Shown: one piece after another, positions 9,686 through 15,825 of the stretch
How positions within the stretch are numbered: position 1 is the stretch's first letter
Layout: each line of letters starts with the position of its first letter
Source of the DNA: a virus
Length of the DNA stretch: 30,262 nt
Direction: 5' to 3' (one strand)
Virus record (IMG/VR): IMGVR_UViG_3300044547_000565
Location: 1 to 30,262 of that record
Notes under the pieces: generated by a model
Told to the model about the DNA's origin: nothing
The model's input: the letters and a program-made list of their open reading frames with translations, nothing else
Databases searched by the model: none
Made by a program: the position numbers and the translations under genes

Positions 9686-10226
9686 ATGCGGTCCTGGCGT
9701 TCTGCTTTAGTAGCTCAATGCGGTTGCGCAGGCGGATAAGGATGTCTGCCTCGCCCAGCCCAGCAAGCTGCCCCGGCAGGTCATTAACCATTGCGTCCAG
9801 CTCTGCGCACCAGGTGCTGACCACCCGCACTGTCTCATCCACCACGCGATCCACCGGGATCAAGCGCCCTTCATCCTCGGCAATCTTGATGTCGAGCCGC
9901 TTTACCTCCCGTTCCAACTTTTGCTTTTTGACGCCATTGATGTCGCTAGGACTTGCTTGTTGCGCCTTAGAATCGCGCCATTTTTGGATGCCTTCAATGG
10001 TTGTCCACGGCAGCCCAGCTTTTGCCATTGCCCGTTTCCACCGCAACACGCCGGGACGACTTAACCCAAAGTGCGCGGCAACCACCTCCAGCGTGAGGTC
10101 TGGCAGCGTGCCCGCTTCGTAGGCAGCAACCATTGCCTGCTCTGCGCGGCTAATGGTTTTCCCGGCCTTCAGCTTGGCAAGGATGTTTTTGACCTGAGCT
10201 TTTGAAACTTGTTCGGTAAGGCTCAT
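9660..10226 (-). CDS. Terminase small subunit (Nu1-like)
   Basis: Protein of 188 aa directly before the large subunit. An HTH-like segment at about residues 45-75 (LTLEVVAAHFGLSRPGVLRWKRA) would bind the packaging site. The central helix (KKQKLEREVKRLDIKIAEDEGRLIPVDRVVDETVRV) matches the dimerisation and gpA-contact region common to Nu1-like proteins, where the EGRLIPVD element is characteristic. It starts with an ATGA overlap with the methyltransferase gene, so the packaging genes are coupled to the methyltransferase. No cos site could be identified beside it. Confidence 0.87.
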   Translation of the reverse strand: MSLTEQVSKAQVKNILAKLKAGKTISRAEQAMVAAYEAGTLPDLTLEVVAAHFGLSRPGVLRWKRAMAKAGLPWTTIEGIQKWRDSKAQQASPSDINGVKKQKLEREVKRLDIKIAEDEGRLIPVDRVVDETVRVVSTWCAELDAMVNDLPGQLAGLGEADILIRLRNRIELLKQNARTAFERHVTHP

Positions 10227-11431
10227 TTTGCAGCGGCCATCTGGTTAAATGTTTTGCCGGTCTCCGCGTGCGTGGCGGTCTTGCCAGTAAAATCCTGCCA
10301 ACGCTTTACAATCACGTCGCAGTATTTTGGGTCAAGTTCCATTAACCGAGCAGAGCGGTTGGTTTTCTCAGAAGCAATTAGCGTCGAGCCGGAGCCCCCG
10401 AAGAGGTCAAGGACAATTCCGCCTTTGTAATAGGTGTCTAAAATATTGGAGATCAAGTCGACAGGCTTTTCGCAAGAATGAACCGTTTTGACTACCTTTG
10501 CAGCTTCCCAAACATCAGATGGAGCCGTTTCTGGGTATTCCGGCTTTCCGTTCAAACACAAATAAAAGGGTTCATGTTGGGGCCGTGAGTAATAGCCAAT
10601 TCCAAAATTGTTCTTCACCCAAATACACATTGCTTGAATTTTGAACGCTTTCGAGATGGATCTTTCAAATGCTCCCAGCTTGGACCAACCAGTCCAAACA
10701 AAAGCAAACGTGTTTTCTTTCATTGAAGCAATGGCGCAAGAGAACACCCCGTTAAGAAACTCGTCAAACTCTTCACCGTCTAAAGCATCGTTTAGAATTT
10801 TGCCATGCGTTCCGCGCTGCGGGGCAAAGTTAATTCCATAAGGCGGGTCAGTGAAAACTATATCCGCTTTTTCACCGTCCATCAGCTTTTCTGCGGCGTC
10901 AATGCTTGTGCTGTCCCCGCACATTAGCCGGTGATTACCGAGCGTCCAAATGTCCCCAAGAACCGTTACTGGGTCTTCCGGCACCTCTGGAACTTCGTCA
11001 GGGTCGGTGTTTCCTTCAATCACCTCCACAGACATCAGTGCTTTGAGTTCGTCCTCATTAAAGCCCGTAAGCTCCAAATCAAAGCCAGCTTCGTCTAGTT
11101 CCTGTAGTTCCAACTTTAGAAACTCATCATCCCATCCAGCGTTTAGTGCCAGTTTGTTGTCTGCGATAACATACGCCCGCTTTTGCGCATCAGTTAAGTG
11201 CCCAAGTCGAATGCACGGCACTTGCTCAACTCCAAGTTTCCGAGCCGCAAGCACGCGGCCATGCCCTGCGATAATGTCGTTGTCAGCTCCAATGAGCACC
11301 GGGTTGGTGAATCCAAACTCTCGAATGCTGGCAGCAATCTGCGCAACCTGCTCGTCTGAGTGCGTGCGAGAATTGCGCGCATAAGGGATTAGCAAATTGA
11401 GGTCAACCTGCTCTAGTTTTGGTGCTGCCAT
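10223..11431 (-). CDS. ParB-domain / beta-class DNA methyltransferase fusion
   Basis: Protein of 402 aa. Residues 7-95 form a ParB/Srx-like domain (IPYARNSRTHSDEQVAQIAASI, with IIAGHGRVLAARKLG). Residues 160-380 are an amino-methyltransferase with DPPY at 195-198 before the SAM-binding FGGSGST at 344-350, the beta order seen in N6-adenine or N4-cytosine enzymes, and an HSCEKPVDL block. No restriction endonuclease lies nearby, so it is an orphan enzyme that probably protects phage DNA. The start is ATG 11431, because a longer version would read through the promoter. The -10 TATATT ends 7 bases before this ATG, so the mRNA may be leaderless. The gene is upstream of and coupled to the small terminase. 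Confidence 0.93.
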   Translation of the reverse strand: MAAPKLEQVDLNLLIPYARNSRTHSDEQVAQIAASIREFGFTNPVLIGADNDIIAGHGRVLAARKLGVEQVPCIRLGHLTDAQKRAYVIADNKLALNAGWDDEFLKLELQELDEAGFDLELTGFNEDELKALMSVEVIEGNTDPDEVPEVPEDPVTVLGDIWTLGNHRLMCGDSTSIDAAEKLMDGEKADIVFTDPPYGINFAPQRGTHGKILNDALDGEEFDEFLNGVFSCAIASMKENTFAFVWTGWSKLGAFERSISKAFKIQAMCIWVKNNFGIGYYSRPQHEPFYLCLNGKPEYPETAPSDVWEAAKVVKTVHSCEKPVDLISNILDTYYKGGIVLDLFGGSGSTLIASEKTNRSARLMELDPKYCDVIVKRWQDFTGKTATHAETGKTFNQMAAAK

Positions 11432-11438
11432 GCTAGGC

Positions 11439-11466
11439 AATATATGCCGCCTCGGCCTGTTAACAA
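11439..11466 (-). promoter_or_regulatory. Promoter for the methyltransferase-packaging operon, possibly leaderless
   Basis: Minus-strand -35 TTGTTA (11466-11461), a 16-bp spacer and -10 TATATT (11444-11439). The -10 box ends 7 bases before the ATG at 11431, so transcription would start at or within one or two bases of the start codon. There is no room for a Shine-Dalgarno sequence. The geometry matches the promoter at 20570-20597. Confidence 0.65.
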
Positions 11467-11523
11467 GGCACTTTTTGCCGATTGCACAAAAAAAGAGCAC
11501 GCGTCCATGACCTCACCCCGATC

Positions 11524-12628: not shown

Positions 12629-12813
12629 TTGCCTGCCTCAAGTTCGTATCTGATCTTTTGCCTAGCCCGTGCCACCTCAACCTGAAAGTGCGTCCAGCAA
12701 TCCCGTTGGATCATCTGAGCCACCGCATCCCGGTCCTGTACTGCCAAGTAATGCCGAGGGAAAGCCTCTAAAAGGCTATCCAATTTCTTCAGAAGTTCAG
12801 TTGTTGATTGCAT
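12625..12813 (-). CDS. Hypothetical small protein (62 aa) after thyX
   Basis: Protein of 62 aa starting at ATG 12813, 17 bases inside the end of thyX; an alternative in-frame ATG at 12849 would overlap thyX more. It is helical and charged (STTELLKKLDSLLEAF, AVAQMIQRDCWTHFQVEVARARQKIRYELE). No family is recognised. The tight overlap with thyX and the ATGA junction with the next gene suggest it is expressed with the nucleotide-metabolism gene. A role cannot be proposed from sequence. Confidence 0.6.
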   Translation of the reverse strand: MQSTTELLKKLDSLLEAFPRHYLAVQDRDAVAQMIQRDCWTHFQVEVARARQKIRYELEAGK

Positions 12814-13432
12814 TGGAAATGATAGGAAATTGCTGTTGAAAGATTTCAAAGATGGATCGCGCGATCTCGCGGTGTTCTTTCTGGGTGTGTTCTGAAAGCC
12901 TTTGCTGAAAGTAGTGAATCCAACTTCTCACTGAGCCAGTCATGTAAAGCGTGGTCTGCACACAAAGCGGAAGCACCATTCGTGCGCATTCGCGGGCCAC
13001 TCCTGCGTCTAACAGTTCGCGGTACAGTGCTTCAGCCCCCCCGATAAACCGCCTGATGTTGTACTCCAGATCCTGATTGCGCATCGTCTGGCAAGACGAC
13101 TGCCGATTTGTTTCGGCCTGTTTGCGCAACTCGAAAGCCTCAAAGTGCTCAACCTCGGAATAGCGTTGTGAGAACTCTTGAAACGTAAATGAGCGGTGCC
13201 TCAAAATCTGCGCCGCAATCGCCCGGCTTGTTTGTATCTCCACAGTCATGCTGGCAGTTTCAAAAACGCTCCAGTGCCCATGTTTCATGCAATACCTGAG
13301 AAGTTTTTCACCTGTCGCCATGTTGAGTTGGTTGGACGGGTTGCTAACGCGGGCTGCGTACACAATGACTCCCTCGGCGTCTGGTACGTCAGGCACCATT
13401 GATTGTGTAATGGAAATTAGCTTAGTTTTCAT
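12797..13432 (-). CDS. thyX: FAD-dependent thymidylate synthase ThyX
   Basis: Protein of 211 aa that makes dTMP from dUMP using methylene-tetrahydrofolate, FAD and NADPH. The ThyX signature RHRxxSxxxxSxR is present as RHRSFTFQEFSQR at residues 78-90, with Thr replacing one conserved hydroxyl position and Ser at 81 and 88. The C-terminal block ARECARMVLPLCVQTTLYMTGSVRSWIHYFQQR carries the substrate-binding Arg residues. The length is typical. The start ATG 13432 overlaps the stop of an 18-codon ORF as ATGA. Phage ThyX boosts thymidine supply during replication. This is the only recognisable metabolic enzyme in the genome. Confidence 0.95.
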   Translation of the reverse strand: MKTKLISITQSMVPDVPDAEGVIVYAARVSNPSNQLNMATGEKLLRYCMKHGHWSVFETASMTVEIQTSRAIAAQILRHRSFTFQEFSQRYSEVEHFEAFELRKQAETNRQSSCQTMRNQDLEYNIRRFIGGAEALYRELLDAGVARECARMVLPLCVQTTLYMTGSVRSWIHYFQQRLSEHTQKEHREIARSIFEIFQQQFPIISNAINN

Positions 13433-13843: not shown

Positions 13844-14503
13844 TTAGTCAAAATCTTCCAAGTTTTGCGCTGCCTTTTGCTCGGCAATGATTCGGTCAGT
13901 CTCTTCGGCTTGAGCCCATACAGCGCGCAAAAAGTTTTGGCGTTCTTCGGGAAGGTGCGAAATGTCTGGATGCTGTTTTCTTGAGTCGCTGCCGCCCCTC
14001 AAGGGCGAGCAAGCGGACTCAGTTTCTTCTTTCTCTGATTTACATGCGGGGGCTTGAGGCCCCGCAGTAAATCTGTTCTCTGTTCTCTTCTTGCGCGCCT
14101 GTGGGGCGTTCACGTGCCACGCCTCAGGGGCGTTCACGAGCCGCGCCTGTGAGGCGTTGCCATGCGCCTGTGGGGCGTGGCTAATCGAGGTCAAAAAAAA
14201 GGCATTTCGGGTTGCTCGATAGCCTCCATTTGCGCCGGAAAAGATACGAATCAGACCAGCCTTTTCGAGGTCAACAAGAGCCCGGCAAACGGTCCGTTGA
14301 GAACATCCCACATGCTCGGCCAACTGCTGGTACGACGCCGAAAAACGTCTTTTGTGTTCGGTTGCTGCTGCACTTTGAAAATGTGTAAGTGCGCAGTAAA
14401 TGGCGTATGCGTTGATGCCTAGTTTGCCAGCTTCAACGGCAGCTTCGCGGGTCTGCCAAGCAAAGGGGCCTTCGTCTTTTGGGTTTTCTGAGCGTGGTTT
14501 CAT
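13844..14503 (-). CDS. Winged-helix replication initiator-like protein (lambda O-like)
   Basis: Protein of 219 aa. Residues 30-98 form a winged helix-turn-helix: NAYAIYCALTHF, then SASYQQLAEHVGCSQRTVCRALVDLEKAGLIRI and a beta wing. A low-complexity linker at about 107-138 has an eight-residue repeat (VNAPEAWH/VNAPQARK type) encoded by the DNA repeats at 14095-14180. The C-terminus is charged, as expected for a helicase-contacting tail. It is coupled by ATGA to the helicase gene. The repeated DNA inside the coding region copies the lambda arrangement, where origin iterons lie in gene O. The initiator role is inferred from the domain and this arrangement. Confidence 0.75.
   Translation of the reverse strand: MKPRSENPKDEGPFAWQTREAAVEAGKLGINAYAIYCALTHFQSAAATEHKRRFSASYQQLAEHVGCSQRTVCRALVDLEKAGLIRIFSGANGGYRATRNAFFLTSISHAPQAHGNASQARLVNAPEAWHVNAPQARKKRTENRFTAGPQAPACKSEKEETESACSPLRGGSDSRKQHPDISHLPEERQNFLRAVWAQAEETDRIIAEQKAAQNLEDFD
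14095..14180. repeat. Iteron-like tandem repeats within the initiator gene (candidate origin)
   Basis: Four tandem units start at 14095, 14119, 14143 and 14164 (24, 24, 21 and 17 bp). Each contains a small dyad, CGCC then five bases then GGCG (14096-14108, 14120-14132, 14144-14156, 14165-14177). A related but separate dyad, CGCCC/GGGCG, lies at 13993-14007. Unit lengths are multiples of three, keeping the frame. A pyrimidine-rich, easily melted stretch lies next to the array (about 14066-14092). This is how the lambda origin is built. Confidence 0.7.
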
Positions 14504-15825
14504 TTGCGTTTTTTGGGTTCTTCTGGTGGTTCTGGTTCAGGGCAAATTTGCCAAATCATGCCGTGCTTTTCTTGGTTTGGACTGTGTCGGATAAAGATTC
14601 GTGCGCTTGGGTTGCCTTCCCAGCTTTGCATACCAGCCCGCAGTCTACGCTTCGTTGCGGTCAGTGAGCAGGTCGGCGGTTCGCCGGGTTGAGTCTCTAC
14701 ACGTTGCAATGTGACGACCTCGCGTGCCCAGTTTGTCAGTGCGCTCGATCCAAACCCTGCGTAGGCCAAATCAGAGTCAGTGCGTGCAGCGCCTTCCCGA
14801 GGCTTAGGAAGGTGATGAATGAGCACCAAGAGCACGCCTGTTTTGCTGCTGATTCGATTCAACCCGTTACAAAACTCTGTAACCACTTTTTGGTCTGAAA
14901 TATCGTCGCCTAGGTAGCACATCAGAGGGTCAATCCATGCAACATCTGGTTGATGCCGGATAATGAGCGCCTCTAAAACTCGCAGAAACTCTGATCCCGA
15001 ATGCACATTGTCGCGGTAAAACACTAGCCGCTCGTTAAGTGTAGACTTTTCTTTTTCGCCGCAATGGCTGTTGCCGTATTTGCAAATAACGCTTTGCAGG
15101 ATTTCAGCTTGATCTCCAATGTCGTTCTCGGCTTGCAGAATTAAGCTTTTCAGAGCTTTGACTGGCTTAATTCCAAAGGTCAGCACATCTGAAAACGTTC
15201 CGCTGCCTAGCGCCCAGCCGATAGCAAGTTGCATCGTCAGGGAGCTTTTGCCGATGCCGCTCTGTGCGTTAATAAGCAGGCTGCCTCCTTTGCAGAGCCA
15301 GCGGTTGCCTATGAGGCTGTTTCTATCGTGCTTTGTATCATAGTTGAGCAGGTCATTAAACGCGGTCTGGACTATAGAACCCAGCCCCTGCTCGGCATTC
15401 GCCACTGTGACGGCATCGCCTAGCCCGGCAACAATGTCACCAGTCGGCAATCCATCGCCAAGTGCTTTTGCTGCGTCCCTGAGTTGCGCTAATAGCTTCC
15501 GGCGTCTTGCTGCGTCCTGCACCAGCCCGCACCAGCTCGGCAGCGGTTCAAGGCTCGGCATCCCAGTAGACAGTTCCGAAATGGTCGCAAATGGAATGCC
15601 TTGGTGCGCTAGTTGGGTAGCCAGCGAAAGCGGGTCCAAACTCTGCCCAGCATCTGCTGCGGCTTGAATGCCCGCAAAGATCGTCGCAAAGCTCGGATTG
15701 AAAAAGTCCCCAGCTGTCAGCCCAGATGCGACAACTGCGGGAAATGCGGTGTGAGGTGCAAAAAGAAGACACCCCAGCACCGCCCGCTCGGCTTGTTCAG
15801 CCTGCGGGATCGTTTGTACGCTCAT
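14500..15825 (-). CDS. Replicative helicase, DnaB N-domain plus RepA/AAA_25-type ATPase
   Basis: Protein of 441 aa. Residues 5-125 match the DnaB N-terminal domain (QAEQAERAVLGCLLF, FFNPSFATIF). The ATPase core has Walker A AQSGIGKSS (187-195), a hydrophobic PDVAWIDPL Walker B strand, and LLVLIHHLPKP near the sensor region. This core resembles RepA-like hexameric helicases more than canonical DnaB, so the protein looks like a mixed form. It unwinds DNA at the phage fork, loaded by the winged-helix protein encoded next. The C-terminus is Pro/Glu/Lys-rich. The order helicase-then-initiator is the reverse of lambda O-P. Confidence 0.87.
   Translation of the reverse strand: MSVQTIPQAEQAERAVLGCLLFAPHTAFPAVVASGLTAGDFFNPSFATIFAGIQAAADAGQSLDPLSLATQLAHQGIPFATISELSTGMPSLEPLPSWCGLVQDAARRRKLLAQLRDAAKALGDGLPTGDIVAGLGDAVTVANAEQGLGSIVQTAFNDLLNYDTKHDRNSLIGNRWLCKGGSLLINAQSGIGKSSLTMQLAIGWALGSGTFSDVLTFGIKPVKALKSLILQAENDIGDQAEILQSVICKYGNSHCGEKEKSTLNERLVFYRDNVHSGSEFLRVLEALIIRHQPDVAWIDPLMCYLGDDISDQKVVTEFCNGLNRISSKTGVLLVLIHHLPKPREGAARTDSDLAYAGFGSSALTNWAREVVTLQRVETQPGEPPTCSLTATKRRLRAGMQSWEGNPSARIFIRHSPNQEKHGMIWQICPEPEPPEEPKKRK

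Follow-up and report, generated by a model that had tools for sequence, protein, structure and literature searches.

Whether the dyad-bearing repeats found within a putative replication initiator gene form a replication origin, read by the product of the very gene that carries them, is the question raised by this locus of a 30,262-base stretch of viral DNA (hereafter the window). A lambda-type intragenic origin had been proposed here in the initial annotation. Our analysis favours a lambda/P22-style intragenic origin that is probably read by the winged-helix product of its own gene and carries an exchangeable specificity cassette, a reading to which we assign a probability of about 0.86. The features of the locus, in window positions, are the following:

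14500-15825, minus strand: helicase gene, encoding a DnaB N-terminal domain and a RepA/AAA_25 core (profiles)
13844-14503, minus strand: initiator gene, 219 aa (open reading frame, PHROG profiles, AlphaFold2)
14273-14299, minus strand: predicted recognition helix, codons 69-77 (AlphaFold2 helix 69-81; class-exclusive residues 69, 70, 73 and 77)
14193-14200, plus strand: A8 run (T8 on the coding strand) just before the array, kept in nearly all relatives (alignment columns 15-22)
14165-14177, no strand assigned: iteron 1 dyad, CGCCTGTGGGGCG
14144-14156, no strand assigned: iteron 2 dyad, CGCCTGTGAGGCG
14120-14132, no strand assigned: iteron 3 dyad, CGCCTCAGGGGCG
14096-14108, no strand assigned: iteron 4 dyad, CGCCTGTGGGGCG
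14074-14093, minus (coding) strand: purine-rich spacer, candidate unwinding element
14037-14073, minus strand: hairpin 1, a 15 bp stem with a 5-base loop and two one-base bulges on the 3' arm
13987-14015, minus strand: hairpin 2, core 13993-14007, with compensatory changes (e.g. CG to GC, GC to AT)

According to profiles and AlphaFold2, the initiator is organised into N-terminal helices, a winged helix-turn-helix, a disordered linker bearing the putative origin and a C-terminal helix; the winged-helix domain was modelled confidently and the linker (residues 105-177) with pLDDT <50. Its best profiles were phage replication initiators and O-like PHROG families (E 1e-10 to 8e-8), with E values of 2e-9 and 8e-8 for lambda O-like families. 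The end of the helicase gene and the start of the initiator gene share four bases (ATGA), and the order exo-hjr-recT-ssb-helicase-initiator was retained in 26/26 initiator relatives as far as their contigs reach, one extra gene being sometimes inserted ahead of the initiator in these 26 neighbourhoods. No lambda-P-like loader was recognised, the conserved neighbour of the initiator being the helicase, as in P22, and a search for a phage-encoded bacterial-type primase zinc ribbon found none. The phage had been called unrelated, a description that holds at the nucleotide level, as a search of the phage collection with the window returned no match to any phage record, although the initiator matches PHROG O-like families. 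A protein search of the same collection gave a single weak match, and genome-contig scans with the initiator and with the helicase recovered no cellular relative. The PDB sequence search with the initiator returned nothing informative (lambda O itself was likewise without an informative match), and a literature search, with most subscription papers outside its reach, retrieved no description of this phage initiator/origin family.

Within the minus-strand reading frame, direct repeats begin at 14094, 14118, 14142 and 14163 (spacing 24, 24 and 21) and encode NAPQARxV-like units of 7-8 residues between the winged-helix domain and the tail. The window contains exactly four copies of the motif CGCC-N5-GGCG, every one within the initiator linker, and the iteron centres (14171, 14150, 14126 and 14102) lie 21/24/24 nt apart. 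When the protein was kept fixed and codons were resampled from the phage's own usage, none of 2000 synonymous draws reached the four dyads of the window (18/24 arm pairs; null mean 11.5), and this null was rejected in all 25 sequences tested, with 0-2 of 2000 draws matching each. The test is conservative, because the repeats themselves shape the peptide. The four tandem dyad-bearing repeats described for the linker of the winged-helix protein are real. Furthermore, iteron 3 is present as an inverted copy in L005 and L007 (class A), L018-L021, L023 and L029 (class B) and L016 (class C; classes as defined below), where the peptide is altered (e.g. NACEAR for NAPQAR) and the DNA site is unchanged, indicating that selection acts on DNA. 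Together with the synonymous null, this supports the proposal that frame-preserving unit lengths reflect selection on both DNA and protein.

Viral contigs were scanned twice with the initiator and once with the helicase, which yielded 46 distinct initiators, the window included. An iteron array was present in 46/46, usually with four copies (three in L088; five in L027, L063, L068 and L101) and with conserved dyad centres, these being the canonical centres from the alignment, since the automated dyad picker sometimes took an overlapping dyad. Free loss of repeats among relatives had been named as an outcome that would speak against an origin; no loss was encountered among the 46 distinct initiators. 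The repeat peptide differs by class (NAPQAR, STPHGR, KPSQGH, RSPQDL), and spacing and dyads stay. In L027 (2577-3239), the five iterons are accounted for by an in-frame gain of 21 nt, and additional sequence is found ahead of the hairpin. Among helicase loci without a detectable initiator, L067, L082 and L108 stop soon after the helicase, L074 holds a gene start only, and the distant L107, a partial match, has no initiator within ~3 kb.

To compare sites between relatives, we defined the half-site as positions -6 to -3 from the dyad centre, which gave seven half-site classes in the main family and three more, likewise each with a recognition helix of its own, in the distant relatives L098, L101 and L102. 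The seven classes correspond one-to-one to seven helix types: CGCC to QRTVC, T(A/C)CA to RGTVK, ACCC to KNTV(A/S), TGAC to ERTVA, GGAC to TKT(I/V)Q, GTCA to RGTVR and TATC to RATVA. Two members deviate, namely one of the T(A/C)CA class with RGTVN and one of the ACCC class with the consensus half-site CCCC. Outside the iteron codons, the only columns fully separating classes A-C in the first 26 sequences were 69, 70, 73 and 77; these columns were chosen on classes A-C, and classes D-G, found afterwards, fit as well. Such a set of positions is what one would expect if they line the outward-facing side of a recognition helix. Distances between helices and distances between half-sites were correlated at 0.84, and at 0.81 once N-terminal distance was removed, with 0/2000 permutations as high. 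At the sequence level, the iterons thus change in step with the predicted recognition helix. The central pentamer, mostly shared across classes, reads YCACA or its complement in 114/174 iterons, so that the arms vary and the core is largely kept. As a side observation, such a class-independent core hints at a second contact or a bending requirement.

On the helicase tree, the three commonest classes account for at least 10 class changes. Sister phages of different class include the window (A) with L011 and L013 (B), L010 (B) with L015 (C), L026 (C) with L029 (B), and L022 (A) with L025 (C). In several of these cross-class pairs, identity falls over codons ~60-140, a span that begins near the recognition helix and ends with the last iteron (the drop begins at ~codon 20 for L008 or L010 compared with L015), and in the closest pairs it returns to ~90-100% on at least one side of the drop. 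In same-class pairs, identity stays without this dip across helix and iterons. The restriction of the cross-class drop to the helix-iteron block indicates that the recognition helix and its sites move as one cassette. Within that block, L022 (A) and L026 (C) have the intervening segment in common and differ in both helix and iterons.

Since helix and iterons lie close together, linkage could be part of their association, and one may ask whether the match reflects mere neighbourhood, i.e. joint travel by recombination or descent with no reading of the sites by the protein. The single continuous block exchanged between cross-class sisters (codons ~60-140) is what such joint travel would produce. 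The partial test argues against it, however: codons 88-107, between helix and array, retain no residual association (-0.01), the class-exclusive residues fall exactly on the predicted recognition helix, and L022 and L026 combine the same intervening segment with different helices and iterons. We therefore regard linkage without reading as quite improbable. Even less credible, to the point of being nearly dismissible, is that the repeats represent an eight-residue protein-level feature of the linker, with the dyads arising incidentally from repeated codons; unit lengths in multiples of three and the similar peptides they encode would suit this idea, but the peptide varies by class at constant spacing and dyads, inverted iteron 3 alters the peptide, and the synonymous null is rejected.

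The winged-helix domain is similar, in profile and structure comparison, to MarR/Crp/Rrf2 regulators, so that the repeats could also be viewed as intragenic operators of a transcription regulator, with replication starting elsewhere, and helix-site matching is predicted equally by this explanation. Against it stand the lack of any copy near a promoter or elsewhere in the window, the replication initiators among the best profiles, the fixed helicase neighbour, and a purine tract and hairpin that repeat the layout of the lambda origin; we consider an operator function improbable. An intragenic origin read by the winged-helix protein accordingly remains our preferred reading.

Beyond the array, the pyrimidine-rich stretch reported to adjoin it is indeed present (plus strand, 14074-14093). 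On the coding strand, the 23-nt spacer of the window is 87% purine and 57% A+T, compared with means of 77% purine and 66% A+T over 43 relatives, values above the gene average. Hairpin 1, absent from the earlier reading, follows the spacer and is the strongest inverted repeat. Of its 15 pairs, 11 vary, all 11 with double compensatory changes; pairing holds in 98.7% of cells versus 33-49% when shifted by 1-3 columns, G-U occurs in 2/314 cells, and the 3' arm retains both of its single-base bulges. Similar bulged stems of different sequence are found in the distant L101 and L102. A covariance model detected a single full copy per contig, always downstream of the array, and an Rfam search with the hairpin gave no family at gathering score; a repeated or known RNA element was therefore discarded as an explanation. 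The CGCCC/GGGCG dyad at 13993, previously taken for a further iteron, is real (13993-14007) but forms the core of hairpin 2 (13987-14015), which has its own compensatory changes, and we rejected it as a fifth iteron.

Hairpin types I and II each occur with iteron classes A, B and C, in all six combinations, which makes it unlikely that the winged helix would read hairpin 1. The same free combination, as well as the conserved bulges, typical of single-strand structures, would also suit RNA elements that control pausing, decay or translation of an early transcript and lie beside the origin by chance. Such a role for hairpins 1 and 2 would be compatible with the origin, but we hold it to be rather doubtful, as two G-U cells in 314 are few for an RNA helix, the one full copy per contig is found at the origin only, Rfam holds no match at gathering score, and a hairpin after an A+T tract is also found in P22, ES18 and lambda.

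Like lambda, the window has four dyad iterons about two helical turns apart, located in the initiator gene downstream of the codons for the DNA-binding domain and ahead of those for the C-terminus (codons 117-145 in lambda, ~109-137 in the window; spacing 20/24/23 and 21/24/24, respectively). They are followed by a purine-rich tract, in the window a candidate unwinding element, and by a palindrome. In lambda, the iterons within O begin at 39034, 39054, 39078 and 39101, and the A+T tract and palindrome come after them; the unwinding tract comprises 38-39 bp with 76% A+T, as opposed to ~23 nt with 57% A+T in the window. Two O proteins bind to each 18-bp lambda iteron (PMC6022878), and that paper cites type specificity between O and origin in hybrids with phi80 and 82. 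The two systems differ, however, in several respects: the iteron sequences are unlike, the window has a helicase gene upstream and no recognised P-type loader, its bulged hairpin varies by compensatory change, and its short initiator C-terminus is without detectable relation to O. Direct profile comparison of the initiator with lambda O and with a lambda/P22/ES18/GF-2 set was not significant. We propose that the locus works like a lambda/P22 origin and do not claim membership in the lambda O family proper, homology to O being no more than suggestive. Phage Turner has the lambda O C-terminus and the post-tract sequence in common with lambda but different iterons and a different DNA-binding domain, and therefore cassette exchange exists in lambdoids too.

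P22 is similar in that its O-like initiator gene 18 contains an internal origin and adjoins a DnaB-like helicase gene of its own (gene 12), with a hairpin after the AT tract; the gene order is reversed, the helicase lying downstream of the initiator in P22 and upstream here. Post-tract hairpins better than shuffled sequences were found in P22 (L054, ~560-590; 1/300) and ES18 (L050, ~765-790; 2/300); that of lambda is weaker, and Turner, GF-2 and ST16 lack a significant one. This suggests that hairpins at such origins are more widespread, common to lambda, P22 and ES18 in position and not in sequence.

The clearest experimental precedent for a co-varying initiator and origin is provided by the PLE satellites of Vibrio cholerae, in which the RepA DNA-binding domain and the origin covary and only cognate pairs replicate; modules have been swapped more than once, a process connected with evasion of a nuclease that cuts the origin (PMC8263062). 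As in our family, DNA-binding domain and iterons vary together and the remainder is constant. The PLE system differs in its noncoding origin, its RepA_N domain, its two replicon groups and the origin-cutting nuclease as proposed driver.

GC skew is a weak sign of an origin here. Its minimum in the window lies at 13,318 and the flanks have the expected skew sign in 10/10 contigs, but the raw global minimum falls at the locus in the window only; we rejected GC skew as proof of an origin, as it is too weak outside the window. Retention of the array in 46/46 initiators, lambda-like spacing and helix/iteron covariation strongly support the proposed lambda-type intragenic origin. From anatomy and covariation, we infer initiator-iteron binding, origin activity and helicase recruitment as follows. 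Dimers of the initiator would recognise the four dyad iterons by means of residues 69-77, the recognition helix, and accumulate along the array. The purine/A+T-rich spacer beside it would then melt, and the neighbouring helicase would be delivered to the strand thus exposed, with the initiator as its probable recruiter. The bulged hairpin would represent an allele-independent second module with a probable function on the melted strand, e.g. as an entry structure for helicase or primase. As helix and iterons lie within one stretch of ~240 bp, recombination between relatives would exchange both together and yield a working origin of new specificity.

More tentatively, and at somewhat less than even odds, the origin may be a fast-exchanging specificity locus with at least seven matched helix/iteron alleles that circulate in one phage group as swappable cassettes, their diversity being maintained by conflicts among co-infecting relatives, satellites or origin decoys. 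The hairpin may then be a module of its own, the same for all alleles, that a conserved factor recognises in single-stranded form. In lambda, replication is blocked by ectopic copies of the lambda origin (PMC4488673). By analogy, such a block may give rare specificities an advantage, and might have driven diversity here.

The family amounts to a natural experiment, with at least seven initiator alleles, each with its own site, and some pairs near-identical outside one block. With it, the code by which winged-helix phage initiators recognise their sites can be tested directly, and its origin/initiator pairs are candidates for orthogonal use. Where an origin lies within the gene of its own initiator, the two can be transferred jointly, and the hairpin is a possible third origin module, common in position with lambda, P22 and ES18.

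Additional variation was noted around the locus. The helicase/initiator junction is an insertion spot in L012, L013, L014, L007, L016, L019-L021 and L023: a C5-type DNA methylase is inserted in L012 (with a similar C-terminal end in L013), an acetyltransferase-like reading frame in L014, and a reading frame of ~190-205 aa without known function in L007, L016, L019-L021 and L023. Between terminase and replication genes, the window encodes a ParB-like domain fused to a DNA methyltransferase (10223-11500; phrog_498, E 2e-138). The flavin-dependent thymidylate synthase ThyX is encoded downstream of the initiator in the window (12797-13432), and the ThyX match in L023 is located ~7 kb upstream instead.
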